From Candidatus Melainabacteria bacterium (lineage in GTDB: Bacteria; Cyanobacteriota; Vampirovibrionia; LMEP-6097): a DNA stretch of 64,000 bases. Below the pieces are notes generated by a model. The model ran no database searches. It saw nothing but the letters and a program-made list of their open reading frames with translations, and had not been told where the DNA came from. The stretch lies in NCBI GenBank assembly GCA_005110385.1, contig DUDT01000013.1, forward strand, positions 1-64,000. The letters are read 5' to 3'. Positions 1 to 46,241 of the stretch are shown piece by piece. Numbering within the stretch: the stretch's first letter is position 1; every line of letters starts with the position of its first letter. Both the position numbers and the translations under genes were made by a program.

Positions 1-246
1 CCTCATGATCCTCATGTACTCCGAGTACATTGCGGTCATTCGTCCTCCTCAGCCTTGAACTTGCACGATTGTGAGCAGTCCCATCTTTAAGCTGCTCGCA
101 ATCTCCAATTTCTGCGTTTTCGTCGCCCTCATGATCCTCATGTACTCCGAGTACATTGCGGTCATTCGTCCTCCTCAGCCTTGAACTTGCACGATTGTGA
201 GCAGTCCCATCTTTAAGCTGCTCGCAATCTCCAATTCCTACATTTT
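1..246 (-). repeat. Tandem array of the coding palindromic element in valS
   Basis: Period is 126 bp (42 codons): the block at 131 repeats the block at 5. Read in the valS frame it gives RASSRLRRTNDRNVLGVHEDHE, then GDENAEIGDCEQLKDGTAHN, then the unit again. One partial, one complete and at least one truncated unit are visible, and the array runs off the window. Arms at 193-208 and 67-82 (GATTGTGAGCAGTCCC) pair with GCTGCTCGCAATC at 91-103 and 217-229. Confidence 0.9.
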
Positions 247-2854
247 CTGATTTAATAATAAAACTACTTAAAGGCTTTTCGGGAGTGGGTTTATCTATGA
301 ATATATCTGAGCATTTAGCTATTCTTTTTATATAAGGGCGAATTTCAATTAAGGTAGAAATATCTGCTTCACTAGGATTAGAAATAAATAGCTTAATTTC
401 ATCACTCCAAGAGATATTTAAACTCTGCCTAGTATTTCTAATTTTAGAGATGATTTCAGTCGCTAATTTCATCGACCACGTAACATTTGCTTTTTCCTGA
501 GCAACTCCTATGCCCTTTGGTTCAGCAAATGCAGCTCCAAGAAAGGTTATCTGCCCTTTTTGATCTTCTGGGAATTTAGCAAAAGTCACATAGGGCTTGG
601 CTTTATACTCTTCAGTGAAATAGTCATTCTCTATTTCTGAAAAATCTACGATATGCATTAAGCTCTGCCAGATTTCCTCTGTCACGAATGGCATAAATGG
701 CTGTAAAGCTCTAACAGCAGAGGCTAAAACATAAAATAGCACCTGATTTTTAGTTTCTAAATTATCCTGTATTTTAGAAAACTCTATATACCAGTCACAG
801 AAACGAGTCCAAGTAAACTCAAAGATCTCCTCCTGAGCAGCACCTATATCATATTTAGTAAAATAAGTAGAGACAGTGCTTAAAACGTTTTCTAGTTCAT
901 AAATTATCCATCTATCAGCGAAAGTCATTGCATTTAAATTTAGCTCAGTAATAGGCTTAACCTTAAATTTCCCAGTACTTTTATAGCTAGGATCTTCAAC
1001 TAAATTCATACAAGTAAATTTCGCAGAGTTATAAAGCTTATTAGCAAAGCGTTTATATTTCTCCATCACCTCACATTCCCAATCTTTCACTTTAGGGTCT
1101 TCTTTACTTGGAAAGGATTTACCTGGGAAACGCACATCCTGACTAGAAAAAACCCCTACCTGTGCGTACCACATTCTAGAAGCATCAGCACCATAATTTC
1201 TAACTAGAAGTAATGGATCTATAGCATTACCTTTAGATTTACTCATCCTTTTACCATCTGGCGTCTGAACTACTGGGTGAATTAGCACTTTACTGAAAGC
1301 CTTTTCCTGCCTAAAGAATTCACTAGAGAATATCATTCTAGTTACCCAGAGATTAATAATTTCTCTTGCGGTAGCTAGAACAGTAGTCGGGTAGTACTTC
1401 TTCAGCACAGCTTCATCATCAGCCATACTAATAAACGGCCATAATGCACTGCTAAACCAAGTATCCAATACATCAGTTTCACCTTCGATAGGAATCTGAT
1501 GCCCCCACCATATCTGACGGCTAATACACCAGTCCTGAATATTCTCAAGCCACGCTTTAAAAGGCTCTTCGTATCTCTCGGGAATAAAATCAGTTCTCTT
1601 CGAATCAGGTAATTTTCTATCTGGATCTTTAGTAACTCTGTTTAAAGCCATTTCAGCAAGCTGCTTCATACTTAAATACCACTGATCACTTAAGGCTGGT
1701 TCTATTTCAGTATTACATCTATCATGCAGACTTTCAGTCCCTGTATATTCTGTAATCTTCACTAAAGCCTCGCTTAAAGCTAAAGCCTCCTCTACAGCAG
1801 TTCTTGCCTTATATCTATCAAGCCCTTGAAACTCAGTAGGCACTTCAGGAATATTTAAAAGCTCAGCTTTATCATTAAATATATTTAGCTCAGTAAGCCC
1901 ATGCCTTTTCCCGATAAGATTATCATTAAAATCATGAGCTGGAGTGACTTTCAAAGCTCCAGTTCCGAAATCTAATTTAACCTGTTCATCTAATATAACT
2001 GGAATAGCTTTATTAATAAATGGTATTAAAACCTTTACAGAATTAGGTTTAGATTTTATTTCATTAATTAGACTTGAATATCTTTCGTCATTTGGATTAA
2101 TAGCTACAGCCGTATCGCCGAACATAGTCTCTGGTCTAGTCGTCGCTACTATTAAGTACTGCTCGCAAACTCCAATTTCTGCGTTTTCGTCATCCTCATG
2201 CTCACCATAAGGCTTTTCTAATTTATATTTAATTTCATAGAGCTTTTTAGTTTTAGCAGATTCTTCTATCTCCAAGTCAGAAAGAGAAGTTAAACATTTA
2301 GGACACCAATTCGTTAAGCGTTTCCCTTTATATATATAGCCTTCTGCATGATACTTTTTAAAAGCAGCCAGCACCGCTTCTTGATACTGAGCATCCATAG
2401 TATAACGAGTGCGATCATAATCTGGACTAAAGCCGAGCCTCTTCATCTGCTCAAGAATCTGATTACCAGACTGTTCCTTCCAAGACTGAATTCTTTCAAG
2501 AAAAGCTTCTCTGCCTAAATCTTCCTTTCTAAGCTTCTCTTCACTCTTAAGTTTTTTTTCTACGACTAACTGCGTTCCGATACCAGCATGATCTGAACCT
2601 ATCTGCCAGTGAACATCATAGCCACGCATGCGATGATAACGAATTAATACATCCTGTATAGTTCCGCCCAAGGCATGCCCCATATGTAGCTCCCCAGTAA
2701 CATTAGGCGGTGGCAGGGCTATACTAAAAACTTCACGACCATTATTTAGGTCTTTATTTACTTGGAAGATTTTTTTATCTAACCAAACGGCTAACCATTT
2801 TTCTTCTGTTTCAGTGAAATCATAGCTGGCTTTAAAAGGAAGAGTAGTATTCAT
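1..2854 (-). CDS. valS: Valyl-tRNA synthetase, 3' end outside window, with in-frame repeat insertions
   Basis: Cytoplasmic class I enzyme that charges tRNA-Val and edits Thr-tRNA-Val. The frame is open from ATG 2854 to the window edge (about 951 codons). Visible motifs are ELHMGHALG (HIGH) near residue 50, a WCPKC zinc knuckle near residue 185, the editing-domain signature ATTRPETMFGDTAV near 235, WCISRQIWWGH near 445, DVLDTWFSSALWPF near 460 and RMSKSKGN (KMSKS) near 537. Oddities seen: a short foreign piece (HEDDENAEIGVCEQ) just before ATTRPETM; a tandem repeat array from about residue 870 replacing or extending the linker before the C-terminal coiled coil; and GHQIPIEGETDVLDTW, where most ValRS carry about 35 more residues. 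TACAAT lies 9 nt before the ATG with no Shine-Dalgarno. Identification is certain. Whether the insertions are tolerated is inferred from the intact frame. Confidence 0.95.
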   Translation of the reverse strand, partial: MNTTLPFKASYDFTETEEKWLAVWLDKKIFQVNKDLNNGREVFSIALPPPNVTGELHMGHALGGTIQDVLIRYHRMRGYDVHWQIGSDHAGIGTQLVVEKKLKSEEKLRKEDLGREAFLERIQSWKEQSGNQILEQMKRLGFSPDYDRTRYTMDAQYQEAVLAAFKKYHAEGYIYKGKRLTNWCPKCLTSLSDLEIEESAKTKKLYEIKYKLEKPYGEHEDDENAEIGVCEQYLIVATTRPETMFGDTAVAINPNDERYSSLINEIKSKPNSVKVLIPFINKAIPVILDEQVKLDFGTGALKVTPAHDFNDNLIGKRHGLTELNIFNDKAELLNIPEVPTEFQGLDRYKARTAVEEALALSEALVKITEYTGTESLHDRCNTEIEPALSDQWYLSMKQLAEMALNRVTKDPDRKLPDSKRTDFIPERYEEPFKAWLENIQDWCISRQIWWGHQIPIEGETDVLDTWFSSALWPFISMADDEAVLKKYYPTTVLATAREIINLWVTRMIFSSEFFRQEKAFSKVLIHPVVQTPDGKRMSKSKGNAIDPLLLVRNYGADASRMWYAQVGVFSSQDVRFPGKSFPSKEDPKVKDWECEVMEKYKRFANKLYNSAKFTCMNLVEDPSYKSTGKFKVKPITELNLNAMTFADRWIIYELENVLSTVSTYFTKYDIGAAQEEIFEFTWTRFCDWYIEFSKIQDNLETKNQVLFYVLASAVRALQPFMPFVTEEIWQSLMHIVDFSEIENDYFTEEYKAKPYVTFAKFPEDQKGQITFLGAAFAEPKGIGVAQEKANVTWSMKLATEIISKIRNTRQSLNISWSDEIKLFISNPSEADISTLIEIRPYIKRIAKCSDIFIDKPTPEKPLSSFIIKSENVGIGDCEQLKDGTAHNRASSRLRRTNDRNVLGVHEDHEGDENAEIGDCEQLKDGTAHNRASSRLRRTNDRNVLGVHEDHE
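2155..2206 (-). repeat. Partial palindromic element inside the ValRS editing domain
   Basis: About 45 bp match the right half of the element (GACGAAAACGCAGAAATTGG on the minus strand). It encodes HEDDENAEIGVCEQ immediately before the conserved YLIVATTRPETM strand of the CP1 editing domain. It is in frame, in the same frame and sense as every other coding copy. Confidence 0.85.
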
Positions 2855-3295: not shown

Positions 3296-4905
3296 TCAAT
3301 TAAGCAAATTCGCTTCTGATAAGACTTCTAGACTTGTGGCGAAACCTCCTATCGGTATTAATTGATTGCTATTCATTGGAGTAACTATTGGCCTTAAATA
3401 CGAACCATTAAATATAGAAGTACATTTAAGTGTCAACTTCGAAGGAAGATCTCTTACTGCGTTCGCAGTATCAAAATTTCTATAGTGAAAACTTTGCTGT
3501 ATCTCTTGATTCAATAATTCACCGTTATTATAACTTAAGGGATTCTTATCAAAAGCCCTACGTATATTTCCTTGACAAGATGCTAGTAATAAAATACTTT
3601 TAAACAATTTTTTCTGATCTATAAATATTTGGTGAACTGGATCAAATTCATTGTCATTAGATGGTTTATCAAGATATTTAATAATTGCTGCTGTATTACC
3701 AAAAACAATAATTAAGAATTCAAACAATAATTTTGAACCATAAAGTCTCTCAATATCTCGAAAATTAATAATTTTATCTGCAATAGCACGCTCTAAAAAT
3801 GTAGATAAAAATCCTTTCAGAAGATTGAAGAGTGTATAGTTAAGATCAATGTTTTGACCACTATGTAAAATATAGATATCAATACCTTTATTCACTTTAT
3901 GGAAACATTCTAAAACACGATTCAACTTATTTTTAATAGTATTTTGGTTACTAAATTCAAAAATAGCCTTCGAGCAAAACTTATCAATATACCCATTAAA
4001 ATCTGTCTCCAAGCCATATTTATGATGAAAAATGCTTTGGATATTATCAATGTCGCAAACAAAAATCACTCTGTCAAATCCATATCTATCTGCAAGTTTT
4101 TTTCTTCCTCAGAATTAATATCTCTTTCACTCATCAGGTCCTCATCATGAGCGGAAACTCCAATCTCTGCATTTTCGTCATCCTCAGAATCCTGTAAGTG
4201 TGCACTAAAAATATTTAATAATCTAAAGATATGCCCTAGATCCATCCTGTCGAAATCATCTATAACTAAAACTAATTTTTCCTCTTTATTCTTTTCTTTT
4301 ATTCGCTCTGTTGCATTCTTAATAAAACGAGTTGCAGTATCTTCATGAAGCTTTTGCGCGGCTTCAATCTCTTTCAAGAAACTTCGGACATGCTCTTCTG
4401 GAGTAGGTTCCGTATTCTGTTCTTTAGGATCTTTTTCACTTAGCTCGATAAAATTATTTATTATTTGAGATATTTCAAGGTCTAGTGATGCCTCTAAACC
4501 AAAATTTAATCATATATTAACCGTTACTCCTCTCGTTAATTTGCTTGTGAGTTTCAGTAGTTTTTTCAAAACACCTTGCTCATTATTTCTTAAAGCTTTA
4601 AATTTATCCACAATACGCTTATAATCAGCAAGGATAACTTTTCCTTTAGGGAGTATCTTTAAAAGACTTCTCAGTAAATCAAATTTTACTAACTCAAAAA
4701 TATCTTCATTAGCACAGACTTGATAATTTACTGGATATAGGAATACTGCTTCATAAGGATCTGAGTCTTTCTTAAAAAACTTTTCAGAAAATAGGTTTTA
4801 CCAGCCCCAAACTTAGCAGAAAAAATCATTCTATGATTGTCTTCTAAATCAATAAAGCTTTTAAATATTGGACTTACCTCTTTTCGCTGCGTCCATGTTT
4901 TTACC
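3296..4905 (-). pseudogene. KAP-family P-loop NTPase, broken by frameshifts and a stop
   Basis: Pieces of one KAP-like ATPase can be read in order on the minus strand: Walker A SAKFGAGKT near 4800-4825; then YEAVFLYPVNYQVCANEDIF; Walker B KLVLVIDDFDRMD near 4255; then RVIFVCDIDNI, HHKYG and YIDKFCSKAIFEF (4069 to about 3960) running to a stop at 3296. The frame is lost near 4785 (one base missing after KTYFL), by TGA at 4510-4512, and by one base near 4068, after an element-derived insert (SEDDENAEIGVS). KAP NTPases are membrane-associated ATPases often linked to mobile elements and defence. The three lesions point to decay or to assembly error. The N-terminus is not certain. Confidence 0.75.
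4146..4188 (-). repeat. Partial palindromic element in the KAP NTPase relic
   Basis: The minus strand reads GATGACGAAAATGCAGAGAT, then TGGAGTTTCCGC, encoding DDENAEIGVS. This is the right half of the element in the usual coding frame, located between Walker B and the segment after it. Slightly diverged (ATCTCTGCATT instead of ATTTCTGCGTT), so probably older. Confidence 0.7.
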
Positions 4906-12094: not shown

Positions 12095-12113
12095 CAGCAC
12101 TTCATAAAAAACA

Positions 12114-13682
12114 ATGTACGAAATACCATTAACAAACGGAAAGCACGGTCACACCCTAAACGCCACACAAGTTTTCTCCCCAGATGGCAAATGGCTAGTC
12201 TTCGACACCCGCAATGATGACACTCATATAAGCCGTACTGAGAGCATCTGTAAGTTAAATATTGCAACTAAAGAAATTGTAGAGCTGTATAAAACTAAAA
12301 ATCAAAGTATGCATGGACCTGGGGTAGGGGCAGCAGCTTGGAACCCTGTTAATGACCAGATTATTTTCATTCACGGTCTTTTAAATTGTGATAAGGAAAA
12401 GCCCTACAGCTTGACTAGAAGGTTTGGAGCCATTACTGCAGGGAATCATGAGGCAGGCGAAAACGCAGAAATTGGAGTTCGGCAGCAGTGTTATCATGCG
12501 GAAGGAAGGAATATTCAAGAACCACTTACCAAAGGAGCTTTAAGAGGTGGAACCCATGCCCACACTTGGAGTGCTGATGGCAAGTGGATTAGCTTTACTT
12601 ATAACGATTATCTTATGGAATGTTTAGAAAAAACTTCTTCAAGTGAAAGAAAAGACTTGAGGACTATCGGCGTGATGAGGATGGTAGAGAATATTCATGA
12701 GGATCATGAGACAGGCGAAAACGCAGAAATTAGAGTTCGGTCAATAAACCTTAAAGGCACTGTTGCCGAACGTGCAAGTTCAAGGCTGAGGAGGACGAAT
12801 GACCGCAGTGTACTCAAGGTACATGAGGATCATGAGGACGACGAAAACGCAGAAATTGGAGTTCGGCAGCAGTGCCCTGCAGAGAATTTCAGAGGAACTT
12901 ACTTCGCGGTAGTCGCAGCTAAAGTTACAGAAAATCCTAAATTCGGCAGTGATGAAATAGAGCGAGCTTTCGATGAGTGCTGGCTAGGTAAAAACGGTTA
13001 CACGAAAGACGATAGCACTGTCCAGAATGGTTCACAGCAGACACGAGCCATAGCCTTTCAAGGAAATGTCCGTTCACTAGATGGAACTTTAGTTACAGAA
13101 GTTTTTATAGCAGATATTCCAAGTGATATAACTCAATCACTTACAGCTAAGCCACTGGAGGGGACCTTGGATACGAGACCTAATGTGCCAGCAGGTTTAA
13201 TGCAAAGAAGAATTACTTTTACTACAGAAAGAAAACACCCTGGGCTTCAAGGACCACGTTTCAGGTTGCGCAGTTCAGCAGACGGAAACCTTATTTATTT
13301 CCTTATGAAAGATGATAATGGTATCGTTCAAATCTACTCAGTAAGCAGTGCTAAAAATACTAAAAATACAATCACAAATCAGTCTCTTAAACAAATAACA
13401 AATTTCAAATACTCTGTTCAGTCACAATTCAATCTCAGCCCTGATGATAAATTTCTTTCAGTGGTGTCTAATAATCAGATATATTTAGTTAAAGCGCAAG
13501 ATGGTAGTACTACTAGCGTTAGCGAGAGATACAGCGAAAAAGAAGCGCCAATTAATGGCTTACACTGGAGTCCAGACGGTAAAAGCTTAATTTATAATCG
13601 CTATGTTCTCATCGAAAACGACTACTATATTCAAATTTTCAAAAGACTAATCAACGATAAAACCACCGAATCTCTGGATTAG
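12114..13682 (+). CDS. DUF3748 (YidR-like) propeller protein with three repeat-derived inserts
   Basis: 522 residues. Start and blocks HGHTLNATQVFSPDGKWLVF, SLTRRFGAIT, GGTHAHTWSADGKWISFTYN and FRGTYFAVVAAKVTENPKFG match the YidR/DUF3748 family, a predicted TolB-like beta-propeller whose function is not established. Three pieces of the palindromic element are translated in frame: about residues 110-127 (AGENAEIGVRQQC), 193-210 (HEDHETGENAEIRV) and 215-255 (full copy). All fall between conserved blocks, in loops. The 3' end overlaps miaA tail-to-tail by 32 bp. Family call fairly sure; biological role not inferable. Confidence 0.8.
   Translation: MYEIPLTNGKHGHTLNATQVFSPDGKWLVFDTRNDDTHISRTESICKLNIATKEIVELYKTKNQSMHGPGVGAAAWNPVNDQIIFIHGLLNCDKEKPYSLTRRFGAITAGNHEAGENAEIGVRQQCYHAEGRNIQEPLTKGALRGGTHAHTWSADGKWISFTYNDYLMECLEKTSSSERKDLRTIGVMRMVENIHEDHETGENAEIRVRSINLKGTVAERASSRLRRTNDRSVLKVHEDHEDDENAEIGVRQQCPAENFRGTYFAVVAAKVTENPKFGSDEIERAFDECWLGKNGYTKDDSTVQNGSQQTRAIAFQGNVRSLDGTLVTEVFIADIPSDITQSLTAKPLEGTLDTRPNVPAGLMQRRITFTTERKHPGLQGPRFRLRSSADGNLIYFLMKDDNGIVQIYSVSSAKNTKNTITNQSLKQITNFKYSVQSQFNLSPDDKFLSVVSNNQIYLVKAQDGSTTSVSERYSEKEAPINGLHWSPDGKSLIYNRYVLIENDYYIQIFKRLINDKTTESLD
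12447..12490 (+). repeat. Partial palindromic element, first insert in the DUF3748 gene
   Basis: About 44 bp: CATGAGGCAGGCGAAAACGC, then AGAAATTGGAGTTCGGCAGCAGTG. Right half of the element including its complete right arm, with the left arm missing. Encodes HEAGENAEIGVRQQC in the DUF3748 frame. Confidence 0.85.
12693..12740 (+). repeat. Partial palindromic element, second insert in the DUF3748 gene
   Basis: Core half CATGAGGATCATGAGACAGG followed by CGAAAACGCAGAAATTAGAG, encoding HEDHETGENAEIRV. It ends 16 bp before the full copy begins, so two insertions sit almost side by side. Confidence 0.85.
12756..12876 (+). repeat. Full-length palindromic element (121 bp), third insert in the DUF3748 gene
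   Basis: Left arm GGCACTGTTGCCGAAC (12756-12771) pairs with right arm GTTCGGCAGCAGTGCC (12861-12876), 15 of 16 positions Watson-Crick and one G-U. The core encodes AERASSRLRRTNDRSVLKVH and EDHEDDENAEIGVRQQC without a stop. Same length as the gltX copy, with different arm sequences. Confidence 0.92.
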
Positions 13683-20427: not shown

Positions 20428-20448
20428 ATCAATTGCTATCATAGACAG

Positions 20449-20483
20449 CAAAAATGCAGAAATTGAAGTTCGCAAGCAATGCC
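20449..20483 (+). repeat. Fragment of the palindromic element at the dnaG start
   Basis: AAAAATGCAGAAATTGAAGT followed by TCGCAAGCAATGCC matches the right end of the element (AAAACGCAGAAATTGGAGTTCGGCAGCAGTGCC) with a few changes. One change creates an ATG (20454) in frame with dnaG, so the element may have supplied an apparent upstream start. Confidence 0.65.
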
Positions 20484-20507
20484 ATTAAGGCTAAAATAGA
20501 TAATCTA

Positions 20508-30830: not shown

Positions 30831-30890
30831 GCGTATAGCGGAACTCCAATTTCTGCGTTTTCGTCGTCCACATGATCCTCATGTAAGCTT
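30831..30890 (-). repeat. Palindromic element copy between rplY and rluD
   Basis: The minus strand reads CATGAGGATCATGTGGACGACGAAAACGCAGAAATTGGAGTTCCGC in the element's right half. Flanks GCGTATAGC and GCTATTAGT can pair weakly. Intergenic; it lies between convergent genes and may contribute to termination. Confidence 0.8.
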
Positions 30891-36711: not shown

Positions 36712-38325
36712 ATGCCCTTAAACGCCTTTCCTAAAGTAAAAACCAGAATAGCACCTAGCCCAACAGGTAATCTTCACTTAGGTACCGTCAGAACAGCTCT
36801 CTATAACGTGCTTTTCGCTAAAAAGCACCAAGGTGAATTTTTCTTTAGACTTGAAGATACTGATAGACAAAGAAGTGAAGAACAGTTTACTCAAGAAATC
36901 TTAGAAGGTTTTAAATGGTTAAATATCTCTTGGGATAAGCCAGGAGGACGTGTAACCGAACGAACAAGTTCAAGGCTAAGGAGGACGAATGACCGCAGTG
37001 TACTGGGTGTACATGAGGATCATAAGGACGACGAAAACGCAGAAATTGGAGTTCCGTTACACGCCCCAGAAACTCTCATAGGCTTAGGTGAAGATGGGAT
37101 AGTCAGACAATCCCTCAGAGAAGCTGTGCATAACAGTTATATAGAAAGATTAATTAACGAGGGTAAAGCTTATAGATGCTTTGCGACAGTAGAAGAATTA
37201 GACGCTATGCGTGAAGCTCAGAAAGCTCGTAAAGAGATAGAAAAATATGATAATCGCTCAAGAGCTATTTCCAAAGATGATTCAGAAAAATTATTTAGAG
37301 AAGGTAAACCATATGTTGTTAGATTAAATCTAGGTGAAGATCACGTGATCACTTGGCTGGATTTAATCAGGGGTGAAGTATCCATTAATACTAAAGATCT
37401 AGGTGGAGACCCAGTTATTCAGAAATCTACAGGGCAGGTTCTCTATAATTTTGCAGTAGTGATAGATGACTATGAAATGCAGATCTCACATATCCTGAGA
37501 GGAGAAGATCATATAAGTAACACAGCGAAACAGATCGCTATTTATGAAGCTTTAGATTTTCCTATTCCCGAATTCGGTCACCTGCCTTTAATTTTCACGA
37601 AAGATAAACAGAAGCTCTCTAAACGTAAACATGGTGATATCGCTTCAGTTAAGACTTATCAAGCACAAGGCTATTTAGCAGAGGCACTAGTGAACTATCT
37701 TTTGGGCACTAGTTATAATTCAGCGAAATATGGTGAAATATTTACTATCCCTGAAGCTGCTGAAGATTTCGAAATAACTAGTGTTAGTAAAAGCCCGGCT
37801 ATCTATGATATTCAAAAATTAAACTGGTATAACCGTGACTACATAAGTAAACTAAACTACCAAGAAATATTAACTTATGTTTCGAGATTTTCAAAATTCG
37901 ATTTGGAAAATAGCTCTCTGTTCAATTCATCTCAAATCCAGTCAATAATTGAATCTACTAAAGAAAGTCTTGATAAATTTGAACAGATAGATGAACATAT
38001 TAACTATTTTTTTGAAGATTTTAAACTTAATGATATTACTTTAGTTACGATCGCCGAAGAAGGTAAAGAAGTTATCCATGAATTCATATCCCTTATCGAA
38101 AGTGGTTCTCTAGATTTTACTGATCAAAATTCAATTAAAAATGGTATTAATGCTATTGGTGCAAAATTAAACCTCAAAGGCAAAAAACTATTTTTCCCAA
38201 TTCGTGTAGCCATTAGTGCAAAAACTAGTGGGCCTGAACTAGGATTTATCGCAGTACTTTTAGGTAAAGAGAAGATCGTCGAAAGATTAAATTTAGCCTT
38301 ACTAGAAACCTCACACAGACACTAA
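36712..38325 (+). CDS. gltX: Glutamyl-tRNA synthetase with a full in-frame repeat insert
   Basis: 537 residues. Class I motifs APSPTGNLHLGTVRTAL (HIGH-like, 14-30), LEDTDRQRSEEQF, LRGEDHISNTAKQIAIYEAL and KLSKRKHGD (KMSKS) are intact, as is the C-terminal anticodon domain. A 121-bp palindromic element is translated at about residues 79-118 (RVTERTSSRLRRTNDRSVLG then VHEDHKDDENAEIGV). This is exactly where GluRS normally has the WDEGPDVGGPYGPYRQS loop, after which VRQSLREAVHNSYIERL resumes. First gene of gltX-asd-dapA-rnj, with asd starting one base after its stop. Confidence 0.95.
   Translation: MPLNAFPKVKTRIAPSPTGNLHLGTVRTALYNVLFAKKHQGEFFFRLEDTDRQRSEEQFTQEILEGFKWLNISWDKPGGRVTERTSSRLRRTNDRSVLGVHEDHKDDENAEIGVPLHAPETLIGLGEDGIVRQSLREAVHNSYIERLINEGKAYRCFATVEELDAMREAQKARKEIEKYDNRSRAISKDDSEKLFREGKPYVVRLNLGEDHVITWLDLIRGEVSINTKDLGGDPVIQKSTGQVLYNFAVVIDDYEMQISHILRGEDHISNTAKQIAIYEALDFPIPEFGHLPLIFTKDKQKLSKRKHGDIASVKTYQAQGYLAEALVNYLLGTSYNSAKYGEIFTIPEAAEDFEITSVSKSPAIYDIQKLNWYNRDYISKLNYQEILTYVSRFSKFDLENSSLFNSSQIQSIIESTKESLDKFEQIDEHINYFFEDFKLNDITLVTIAEEGKEVIHEFISLIESGSLDFTDQNSIKNGINAIGAKLNLKGKKLFFPIRVAISAKTSGPELGFIAVLLGKEKIVERLNLALLETSHRH
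36946..37066 (+). repeat. Full-length palindromic element (121 bp) inside gltX
   Basis: Left arm GGACGTGTAACCGAAC (36946-36961) pairs at 14 of 16 positions with right arm GTTCCGTTACACGCCC (37051-37066). The core differs from the DUF3748 copy at few positions, but the arms are different and have changed together. No stop in the gltX frame. Confidence 0.93.
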
Positions 38326-40302: not shown

Positions 40303-42131
40303 GTAAAATAACCAACCAAACAAGAAGAATTCTTAAATCTAGCAGCGGTGAAATCAAGACCGTTACTAAGACGATTAAGCACGACTCTAGTCAAATAACT
40401 TATGATCCAAGCAAAAAAGTAAAAGTAATTGCCCTTGGTGGTTTATTTGAAATCGGAAAAAATACTTGGATCTTTGAATGTGGTGACGATATTATGCTTG
40501 TCGATGCTGGACTCGCCTTCCCGACAGCAAGCATGATAGGAGTAGATATAGTACTTCCTAAAATTAATTATTTAGTCGCTAACAAAGATCGCATCAGAGG
40601 CATGATAGTGACCCATGGTCATGAAGATCATATTGGCGGTATAGTACCGATGCTTAGGGAAATTAATATTCCGATTATTTATGCACCTGGTCTAGCTTAT
40701 GCTTTAATTCAAAGTAAACTCAAAGAAGCGAATATACTACACCAAAAGATGGTCTGGACTAAAGCTAGAGATAGAGTACAGATTGGTCAACATTTTTCAG
40801 TTCAATATATAAGAAATAATCATAGTATCGCAGATAGCTACTGCCTAATCATCGATACACCAGCAGGCAGAATCGTACATAGTGGTGATTTTAAATTCGA
40901 CCACAGCCCAGTAGAGAACCAGTATTTCGACATTCGCAGCTTAGCTGCGGCTGGAGAGTCTGGCGTAGACCTGCTTATAAGCGATAGCACCAATGCAGAA
41001 AGAGCTGGCTATACACCATCAGAAAAAGCTGTTATACCTAAGCTTAAAGAAATGATCTTTAATTCTAAAAAGAAATTATTTATCACGACCTTTGCAAGCC
41101 AAGTAAGTCGTGTGAAAATCGTCTTACAGCTTGCTCTGCAAGCTAATAAGAAAGTAACCATATTTGGTAGATCGATGGTTAACCTCGCTAATATCTCTAA
41201 GGAACTGGGTTTCATTTCCATACCTGATAATTTCATAATCAAGCAAGAAGAAGTTAATAAAATCCCTCCAGAAGATCTAGTTATCTTGACGACAGGCAGT
41301 CAGGGAGAGCAGTTCGCAGCCCTTTCTCGTATCGCCCGTAATGAGCATAAATACGTAAAAATACAAGCTGGAGATCAAGTGCTGATAAGTGCTTCACCCA
41401 TACCAGGTAATGAAAAATCTGTTAACCATCTAATAGATAGTTTATTTGCTCGCGGTGCTGATGTTATCTATGGACTAGGCCAAACTATTCATGTCTCTGG
41501 CCACGCTAGCCAAGAAGAACAGAAAATGCTTTTAAATCTCTGCAAACCAGTTAACTTTATGCCTTGTCACGGTGAATATCGAATGCTGCTTAAGCATGGT
41601 GAAACTGGGATGAAATGCGGAGTTAATCCAGACAATATTTTCGTACTTGACAACGGCGATATTCTTGAGATGCAGGATGGTAAATGTTCTATTAAAGAGA
41701 GAGTCGATTCTGGTATAGTTCTGGTCGATAACGACAATGTCGGCAGGCTGGATGAGGACATCATCCTAGAAAGAAAAATGATCTTAAGTGATGGTTTTAT
41801 ATTAATCGTTGTTAACATTAACGCTTACGGTCAGTACAGCGCTGAGCCTAAATTAAATACCAAGGGTATACTGCTACCGCTTGGTTTTAATGAAAAAAGC
41901 TTTAAAAAAGAACTGATCAGCTTAACTCACGAAGCACTTGAAAGCATTATAGATAAAGAAAAGCCATCTTCTATAGACAATTTAGATAAGTTTTCACTAA
42001 AACTACAGAGCATTATTTCTTCTAAAATTTATAATTTCCTTGATAATAGAACTCGTAGATATCCACTGCTTGAAGTTGTGGTTTTAGGTAATCATGGTGC
42101 GGTAAAACCCGTAGTCGCTGGTTTAAACTAG
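40299..42131 (+). CDS. rnj: Ribonuclease J, probable non-AUG start
   Basis: MBL/beta-CASP ribonuclease for mRNA turnover and rRNA maturation. THGHEDHIGG, HSGDFKFDHSP, DSTNAERAGYT, TTGSQGEQFAAL and HVSGHASQEEQ identify it. The first ATG (40494) lies after VKVIALGGLFEIGKNTWIFE, the conserved first strands that every RNase J has, so it cannot be the true start. Upstream to the in-frame stop at 40263 there is no ATG, GTG or TTG. CTG 40299 overlaps the dapA stop (CTGA) and has AGAGG 10 nt before it, giving 610 residues; ATT 40329 is another option. Function sure, start inferred. Confidence 0.9.
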   Translation: MSKITNQTRRILKSSSGEIKTVTKTIKHDSSQITYDPSKKVKVIALGGLFEIGKNTWIFECGDDIMLVDAGLAFPTASMIGVDIVLPKINYLVANKDRIRGMIVTHGHEDHIGGIVPMLREINIPIIYAPGLAYALIQSKLKEANILHQKMVWTKARDRVQIGQHFSVQYIRNNHSIADSYCLIIDTPAGRIVHSGDFKFDHSPVENQYFDIRSLAAAGESGVDLLISDSTNAERAGYTPSEKAVIPKLKEMIFNSKKKLFITTFASQVSRVKIVLQLALQANKKVTIFGRSMVNLANISKELGFISIPDNFIIKQEEVNKIPPEDLVILTTGSQGEQFAALSRIARNEHKYVKIQAGDQVLISASPIPGNEKSVNHLIDSLFARGADVIYGLGQTIHVSGHASQEEQKMLLNLCKPVNFMPCHGEYRMLLKHGETGMKCGVNPDNIFVLDNGDILEMQDGKCSIKERVDSGIVLVDNDNVGRLDEDIILERKMILSDGFILIVVNINAYGQYSAEPKLNTKGILLPLGFNEKSFKKELISLTHEALESIIDKEKPSSIDNLDKFSLKLQSIISSKIYNFLDNRTRRYPLLEVVVLGNHGAVKPVVAGLN

Positions 42132-42189
42132 GGGACTGCCCGCAAACTCCAATTTCTGCGTTTTCCTTGTTCGTTTGTGAGCAGTCCCC
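42131..42189 (+). repeat. Short form of the palindromic element after rnj
   Basis: Arms GGGGACTGCCCGCAAAC (42131-42147) and GTTTGTGAGCAGTCCCC (42173-42189) pair 15 of 17, the two exceptions being G-U type. The 25-nt loop keeps only TCCAATTTCTGCGTTTTC of the core (minus-sense element). Probably doubles as an RNA hairpin or terminator behind rnj. Confidence 0.85.
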
Positions 42190-45069: not shown

Positions 45070-45309
45070 ATGGCACCAAAGATACTTGGTCCAAGGGATC
45101 GACTTACGTACCTTAGAATGGGTGCTAATGAAGGTCATACTCCACAAATGGGTGCTAATGAAGGTCATACTCCACAAGCTGACTCAAATCAGCCCTGGAA
45201 CTTTCGTCCACAAGCTTATATAGAAGAGAATGAACCTAATGAGCAAGTGGGTTCATCAAGCAGACAATTAGGAGTAGCTTTAGCAACTAATCCAGAGCAA
45301 CTTAGTTAA
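45070..45309 (+). CDS. Small repeat-containing protein, 79 aa
   Basis: Hydrophilic, with a perfect tandem 10-residue repeat MGANEGHTPQ (30 bp, 45118-45177). No signal peptide or membrane helix. GAGGAG 10 nt before ATG. About 80 bp upstream (TTTGTTAATATTTTAAATAT through GAGGAGAAAATAGATT) closely match the leader of the 45900 gene, although the proteins are unrelated. Possibly an exchangeable peptide behind a duplicated promoter. Function unknown. Confidence 0.55.
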   Translation: MAPKILGPRDRLTYLRMGANEGHTPQMGANEGHTPQADSNQPWNFRPQAYIEENEPNEQVGSSSRQLGVALATNPEQLS

Positions 45310-45899: not shown

Positions 45900-46049
45900 A
45901 TGGTATCATGTAGACCCGCATCATTCACAGCAGCTCCAGCAGCAGTAGCAGCAGCTCCAGTAGCAGCAGCTCCAGTAGCAGCAGCTCCAGTAGCAGCAGC
46001 TCCAGCTGTTGAAAATAGACCAGCAGCAGCAGCTTTAGCAGCTAAATAA
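45900..46049 (+). CDS. Ala/Pro-rich repeat peptide, 49 aa
   Basis: MVSCRPASFTAAPAAVAAAP, then PVAAA repeated in 15-bp units and a tail ENRPAAAALAAK. AAGGAG 10 nt before ATG. The upstream 80 bp duplicate those of the 45070 gene. Too short for family assignment; the repeats would let the length vary by slippage. A strong terminator follows at 46114, supporting real transcription. Confidence 0.5.
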   Translation: MVSCRPASFTAAPAAVAAAPVAAAPVAAAPVAAAPAVENRPAAAALAAK

Positions 46050-46160: not shown

Positions 46161-46176
46161 CTAAATCAGTAAAAAG

Positions 46177-46241
46177 CACTGTTGCCGAACTTTAATTTCT
46201 GCATTTTCGCCCAGCCTTGAACTTGCATATTCGGCAACAGT
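46177..46241 (-). repeat. Short form of the palindromic element, intergenic
   Basis: ACTGTTGCCGAA (46178-46189) and TTCGGCAACAGT (46230-46241) form a perfect 12-bp stem. The loop keeps both ends of the core (AATTTCTGCATTTTCGCC and CAGCCTTGAACTTGCA), with the middle deleted. The arms are the same as those of the full copy in the DUF3748 gene. Confidence 0.88.

Follow-up and report, generated by a model that had tools for sequence, protein, structure and literature searches.

The window considered here is a stretch of 64,000 nucleotides from a Candidatus Melainabacteria genome assembled as 1.91 Mb in 25 contigs, and its position 1 is base 1 of contig C13. It begins within a gene: a minus-strand reading frame at 2..2854, open at the contig edge, encodes valyl-tRNA synthetase (ValRS, gene valS), as identified by its Pfam domains (tRNA-synt_1 and Anticodon_1) and its best PDB match (ValRS, 1gax), and its closest named relative is the ValRS of a Candidatus Melainabacteria MAG. 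Two 126-bp units at 1-247 make up by far the strongest tandem array within the window (Tandem Repeats Finder period 126, 2.0 copies, 97% match, score 473). The units are 98% identical to each other and in register, each contributing 42 codons without a stop on the minus strand, and the ValRS frame stays open across both, so that the original observation of a protein-coding 126-bp tandem array in ValRS holds. The unit cut by the contig edge (1..126, peptide LKDGTAHNRASSRLRRTNDRNVLGVHEDHE...) adjoins the neighbouring in-register unit (127..247), a full copy of the element as delimited by the HMM occupying 83-208, and a lone 3' module on the same strand (210..247, reading GIGDCEQ) precedes the first unit in the coding direction and is the source of the direct repeats that flank each unit. 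A second, truncated copy of the element (2155..2208, minus strand, peptide EHEDDENAEIGVCEQ) lies in the editing-domain region of valS, where 36 bp are absent from the sister species G001.

The remaining codons of valS are found on contig C18 (L009:1810-2313). The last 236 bases of C18 (111078-111313) are 100% identical to window 1..236, a repeat node, strand unspecified, that joins the two contigs, and on C18 the frame runs on across the second junction and along the C-terminal arm to the valS stop, reading two units and then DDENAEIGDCEQ-SQEIFFHIPLQGLADIDKL (DDENAEIGDCEQ-SQEIFFHIPLQGLADIDKLKTNLEDKL)...EELNSL-stop. A match of the last 63 residues to the ValRS tRNA-binding arm is weak and falls below the cutoff (20.9 bits vs 25.9); the sister species carry an almost identical arm. 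With both arm and stop present on C18, the arm is kept, set apart from the anticodon-binding domain by the array; the position originally proposed for the array is thereby supported, and a stop just beyond the edge that would remove the arm is excluded.

How many units the array contains can be approached through the overlap itself. Joined on it, C18 and C13 give at least two full units and one partial module. The 236 bases equal 126 + 110, start directly after a T/C variant of the unit and end directly before unique flank, and the longest exact repeat at an offset of 126 would be 110 bases long with two units, 236 with three and 362 with four. Overlaps at other contig ends of this genome measure 127, 130, 159, 162, 196 and, for one pair, 69 bases, as would be expected of a graph assembler with K = 127. 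With this K, two units would have been assembled through, while three or more would collapse to a node of 236 bases, as they would at any K from 111 to 236. From these contig overlaps in a fragmented assembly, rather than from a direct count, we infer that the valS array of the source genome has three or more units. The 127-base overlaps elsewhere and the 236-base node likewise make it unlikely that the array is a single unit doubled by the assembler.

The same site differs between sister species, all of the genomes compared being fragmented assemblies. In G001 it holds one unit (SEN-AGIGDCEQ-LKDGTAHNRASSRLRRTNDRSVLQVHEDHEDNENAGIGDCEQ-SQEMFF), in G002 none (SFTANNRNREIFFHIPLQ), and it is also empty in G006 and other family members with a complete C-terminus. 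A motif scan gave nothing in 80 ValRS loci and ten of their genomes, and the motif, as a strict pattern, did not occur in the rest of the phylum sample. Units of the source genome are 97-100% alike, against 94% identity between the G001 copy and the window array; the valS duplication therefore probably postdates the species split. With 0, 1 and at least 2 units in three sister species, the suggestion that unit number can change is supported between species. Conceptual translation gives the peptide expected inside the ValRS spacer, for example TNDRNVLGVHEDHE. AlphaFold, run on an alignment in which the homologues were truncated, assigned the array region a pLDDT of about 35 and no secondary structure, and the anticodon-binding domain a pLDDT mostly above 90, a prediction consistent with a flexible, unstructured spacer beside a confidently predicted domain.

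The valS unit belongs to a dispersed family. With the unit as seed, an HMM found 114 hits in 302 kb of sequence drawn mostly from around matches, and the source genome carries at least 57 copies. Forty-nine full copies align almost without gaps, and between the 5' arm and the 3' arm complementary to it lies a near-invariant core (TTCAAGGCTGAGGAGGACGAATGACCGCAGTGTACT-NNNN-GTACATGAGGATCATGAGGACGACGAAAACGCAGAAATTGGAG); the arm sequences vary between copies while their pairing persists. All 14 pairs of the outer stem have compensatory changes on both sides, 95.7% of the outer-stem cells are paired compared with 77.6% after shuffling and 27-51% in slid controls, and stem covariation is 0.473 against 0.148. 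This strong covariation substantiates the palindromic nature first ascribed to the element from the valS copies. The inner hairpin has a hypervariable loop, with about 80 extra bases in some copies; this long-loop form, which includes AAGCTTGATTTATCAAGCTT, is seen in the G001:C22 insertion opposite window 22342, in L163/L235 and in L015:4341-4622, and one orthologous site has the short loop in G000 and the long loop in G002. Conserved-sequence terminal inverted repeats, a trait of MITEs, were not found at the ends of the element, whose arms conserve pairing and not sequence, and cmscan against Rfam returned no meaningful match.

Further copies are scattered over the window. A full in-frame copy lies in the glutamyl-tRNA synthetase gene (36951..37057, plus strand) and is present in G001 with compensatory stem changes; partial copies lie in a 147-aa open frame (4149..4193, minus) and outside ORFs (30840..30888, minus). 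Two short derivatives have lost the middle and kept the complementary arms, one at 42130..42170 (minus), where the locus is 59 bp longer in G001, and one outside ORFs at 46174..46211 (minus). A clean candidate for a target-site duplication was seen at one partial copy (20444..20485, plus), where the insertion, 55 bp that G001 lacks, has ATAGA at either end; the junctions of full copies are too diverged to read. We also note two perfect tandem repeats unrelated to the element, a 15-bp repeat (CAGTAGCAGCAGCTC) present 4.2 times at 45943-46005 and a 30-bp repeat present twice at 45117-45177.

Gain and loss of single units extends well beyond valS. Differences of exactly 126 bp occur at seven other orthologous sites (L014, L021, L011, L015, L016 and two in the window gene at 12108-13679), several of which have the 3' module in one species and the module plus a unit in the other, the state expected from recombination between direct repeats flanking a unit. 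The window gene, of DUF3748/PD40 type, presents this state in both directions: at 12443..12496 (plus) the source genome has the module and G001 the module plus the 126-bp unit, and at 12692..12878 (plus) the source genome has the module plus the full unit and G001 the module only. Over about 94 kb of synteny with G001, the majority of element sites differ in length or presence. Length differences inside genes are multiples of three (36, 126, 126, 171, 153, 126 and 27), and several of those outside long ORFs are not (55, 65, 59 and 233). Nor is the valS array unique, since the genus has two-unit arrays at other loci too, inside contigs. Those with 123-126 bp spacing (G000 L012 and L014; G002 L175:1564-1811 and 3948-4195; G001 L197/L253) lie mostly within long ORFs, of photolyase-like, dihydroorotate dehydrogenase B Fe-S subunit, tRNA pseudouridine synthase and AAA/DUF4143 proteins.

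The relation of the element to reading frames is strongly one-sided. Within ORFs of at least 200 aa, all 49 full copies and 50 of the 51 partial copies are sense in one shared frame and none is antisense, and no long-ORF host has a stop in the element frame. The hosts include GlyRS beta, GluRS, GMP synthase, tRNA pseudouridine synthase and Sua5, and further a RadA-like protein, DabA, an AcrB-type pump and AAA/DUF4143 proteins. Many of these enzymes retain the peptide pattern RxSSRLRRTNDRSVLxVHEDHEDDENAEI, for which the PDB holds no match. One antisense frame of the element is also open and yet goes unused in long ORFs, so plain tolerance alone does not explain the bias, which may reflect selection against the antisense peptide or a role at the RNA level. 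In shorter, mostly chance ORFs, full copies are sense in 24 cases and antisense in 22.

Relatives are found at two greater distances. Of 60 genomes searched with a covariance model of the element, R1, every one of the nine from the GTDB family (G000-G008) was hit, two from a second family (G015 and G025) gave weak hits, and the other 49 gave none. Most of the copies examined outside the genus are not spanned by a long ORF; two in G006 are. The apical motif AGTKTAC-N5-GTAMATGAGCATTTT (AGTKTAC-N5-GTAMATGAG) occurs in 17 of 185 gammaproteobacterial genomes, in up to 75 copies, and also in Pseudomonas and Halomonas plasmid records; a reversed control pattern gave 0. These gammaproteobacterial repeats have the same apical sequence and fold, variable 5-nt loops, ACAAGGC ... 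AACGC flanks and long paired arms, longer than those of the Melainabacteria element. Most of the repeats were selected by the apical motif for training a second covariance model, R2, built from 13 gammaproteobacterial repeats only (alignment A4); ACAAGGC and AACGC, which played no part in that selection, are common to them and to the Melainabacteria elements. R2 recognised Melainabacteria elements with E values from 1e-12 to 1e-18, the full-length matches being L019 and L018 in the source genome (2e-12) and L255 (3e-15) and L256 (4e-18) in G004, and gave nothing in the unrelated control loci searched alongside. Among phages and plasmids no full match to the unit was found; there was a weak hit of 40 bases to Escherichia phage Goslar (E 3e-3).

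None of 12 gammaproteobacterial loci examined has an intact host gene translated across the repeat. Two candidates for such in-frame cases, with gene names assigned by eye, were rejected: at L332 a stop stands directly before the element, and the ORF at L334 extends upstream from a YifB-like start. At L332 the repeat directly precedes a ThiL-like ORF that is apparently cut at its N-terminus. In the gammaproteobacterial genome G432 there are 75 exact copies of the apical motif, nearly all among those listed with the loop ACGCA and several near contig starts, which looks like a recent burst.

The ERIC/IRU repeats of enterobacteria are imperfect palindromes similar in size to the Melainabacteria element. 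The E. coli copy examined (L335) is intergenic and similar in its apical stem, GA internal loop and TAC-loop-GTA hairpin, and by eye ERIC and the gammaproteobacterial repeats share GACAAG...AACGCAG and the GA-flanked TAC-loop-GTA hairpin. That copy was matched neither by the nhmmer family model nor by R2; we therefore treat the likeness to the element as a resemblance only, homology being unsupported, and a very distant kinship between ERIC and the gammaproteobacterial repeats as possible.

In habit, the Rickettsia palindromic elements are closest (PMC10969869, PMC3767692, PMC3733652). These are described as 100-150 bp long, present in many copies and inserted in frame in unrelated protein genes with the frame left intact (Ogata et al., 2000, 2002, as cited in PMC10969869 and PMC3767692). 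The Melainabacteria element is likewise a palindrome of about 100-150 bp in many copies with in-frame insertions in unrelated protein genes. It differs in its phylum (Vampirovibrionia, not Rickettsiales), tandem arrays, single reading frame, hypervariable loop and freely covarying arms, and in having relatives among the dispersed repeats of Gammaproteobacteria. PARCEL coding repeats are also palindromic, tandem and protein-coding, but their units are described as 25 amphipathic residues in ORFs without assigned function (PMC2996958), whereas ours are 42 residues in housekeeping enzymes; it is by description that the two are set apart. REP elements share the dispersed palindromic form and the occasional intragenic location; they are 20-40 bp long with GTAG or CGTC tags, and GTAG REPs are linked to a Y1 transposase (PMC3733652), which was not found in G000, G001 or G002 (G000 and G002 being incomplete). 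The open-access literature searched, with subscription papers mostly outside it, holds no description of such elements in Melainabacteria or of the apical motif.

We consider it probable that the valS array is a locally amplified, translated and tolerated copy of a dispersed, non-autonomous hairpin repeat, whose units are added and removed via its own direct repeats. Let us assume that such a repeat, with one long open sense frame in its core, dispersed through the genome, and that one copy inserted into the valS linker that connects the anticodon-binding domain with the C-terminal arm. The unit length being a multiple of three and the sense frame lacking a stop, the insert would be read as a charged, unstructured spacer of 42 residues, which ValRS presumably tolerates. 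If this copy then acquired direct repeats of its own 3' module on both sides, recombination or perhaps slippage between the flanking modules would add or remove exactly one 126-bp unit. Such a scenario would account for the single unit of G001 and for the two or more, probably at least three, of the source genome, the change having presumably gone towards more units. As for what moved the repeat in the first place, a reverse transcriptase, like the Y1 transposase, was not found in the three genomes of the genus, two of them incomplete, which makes both enzymes unlikely movers.

The alternative that we take most seriously, though we think it unlikely, is that the element is kept for a role in RNA, as an mRNA hairpin bound or cleaved by a host factor, with translation only a permissive side condition. 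This would explain the sense-only orientation in every long ORF and the conservation of structure with free arm sequence. It is favoured by the full covariation of the outer stem and by an apical core and fold held in common with dispersed repeats of another phylum. Orthologous cores also differ at 1.85% of sites compared with 6.0% in the flanks, but this figure is biased toward consensus-like copies, since those compared were the top hits to the consensus, and it should be taken as a hint only. The synteny comparison, which is free of that bias, has most sites turning over between sister species and so does not suggest a site-specific function, and the sense-frame excess is absent outside long ORFs.

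It seems a good deal less probable that the peptide itself is selected, as a charged 42-residue spacer useful to ValRS and the other hosts for tethering, regulation or localisation, with more units giving more effect. The single reading frame and the recurrence of the peptide pattern in many enzymes would fit, but the host proteins are unrelated, G002 and other relatives lack the insert at this valS site, many copies are truncated to varying lengths, and the peptide matches nothing in the PDB and is predicted to be unstructured. A false duplication at a contig end, or a false join of C18 to C13, is suggested by the position of the array exactly at two contig ends and is nonetheless very improbable, since each contig has two units with its own unique flank and its own variants of the unit, joining them yields a complete in-frame ValRS that shares its second junction with G001, and other two-unit arrays lie inside contigs. 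Equally hard to credit is removal of the insert before the protein is made, by self-splicing RNA or translational bypass, leaving the array silent: a compact, structured RNA whose core is conserved and whose ends pair does recall a small intron or bypass element, but splicing would need neither an open frame nor length differences in multiples of three, both of which the in-gene copies have and the latter of which several copies outside long ORFs lack, and Rfam gave no match.

The reading of the array as a tolerated, translated hairpin repeat extends, with somewhat less assurance, to the family as a whole. We rather favour the view that it belongs to a structured dispersed repeat superfamily present in two phyla and absent from Rfam, which in one Melainabacteria genus has become a translated, genome-wide insert, sense-only and in one frame, with a covarying stem and a hypervariable loop, its 126-bp units being gained and lost inside essential enzymes. 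Translated palindromic repeats have so far been described chiefly from Rickettsia and Wolbachia, and the Melainabacteria element is apparently an independent case in another phylum. The sister species offer empty, single-unit and multi-unit versions of one site in an essential enzyme, alongside many other orthologous gain and loss events and the gammaproteobacterial relatives, some of them in culturable genera (Pseudomonas and Halomonas), and with these in hand the origin of the element, its insertion and the change in unit number are directly testable. The case shows a route by which new segments may enter essential proteins.
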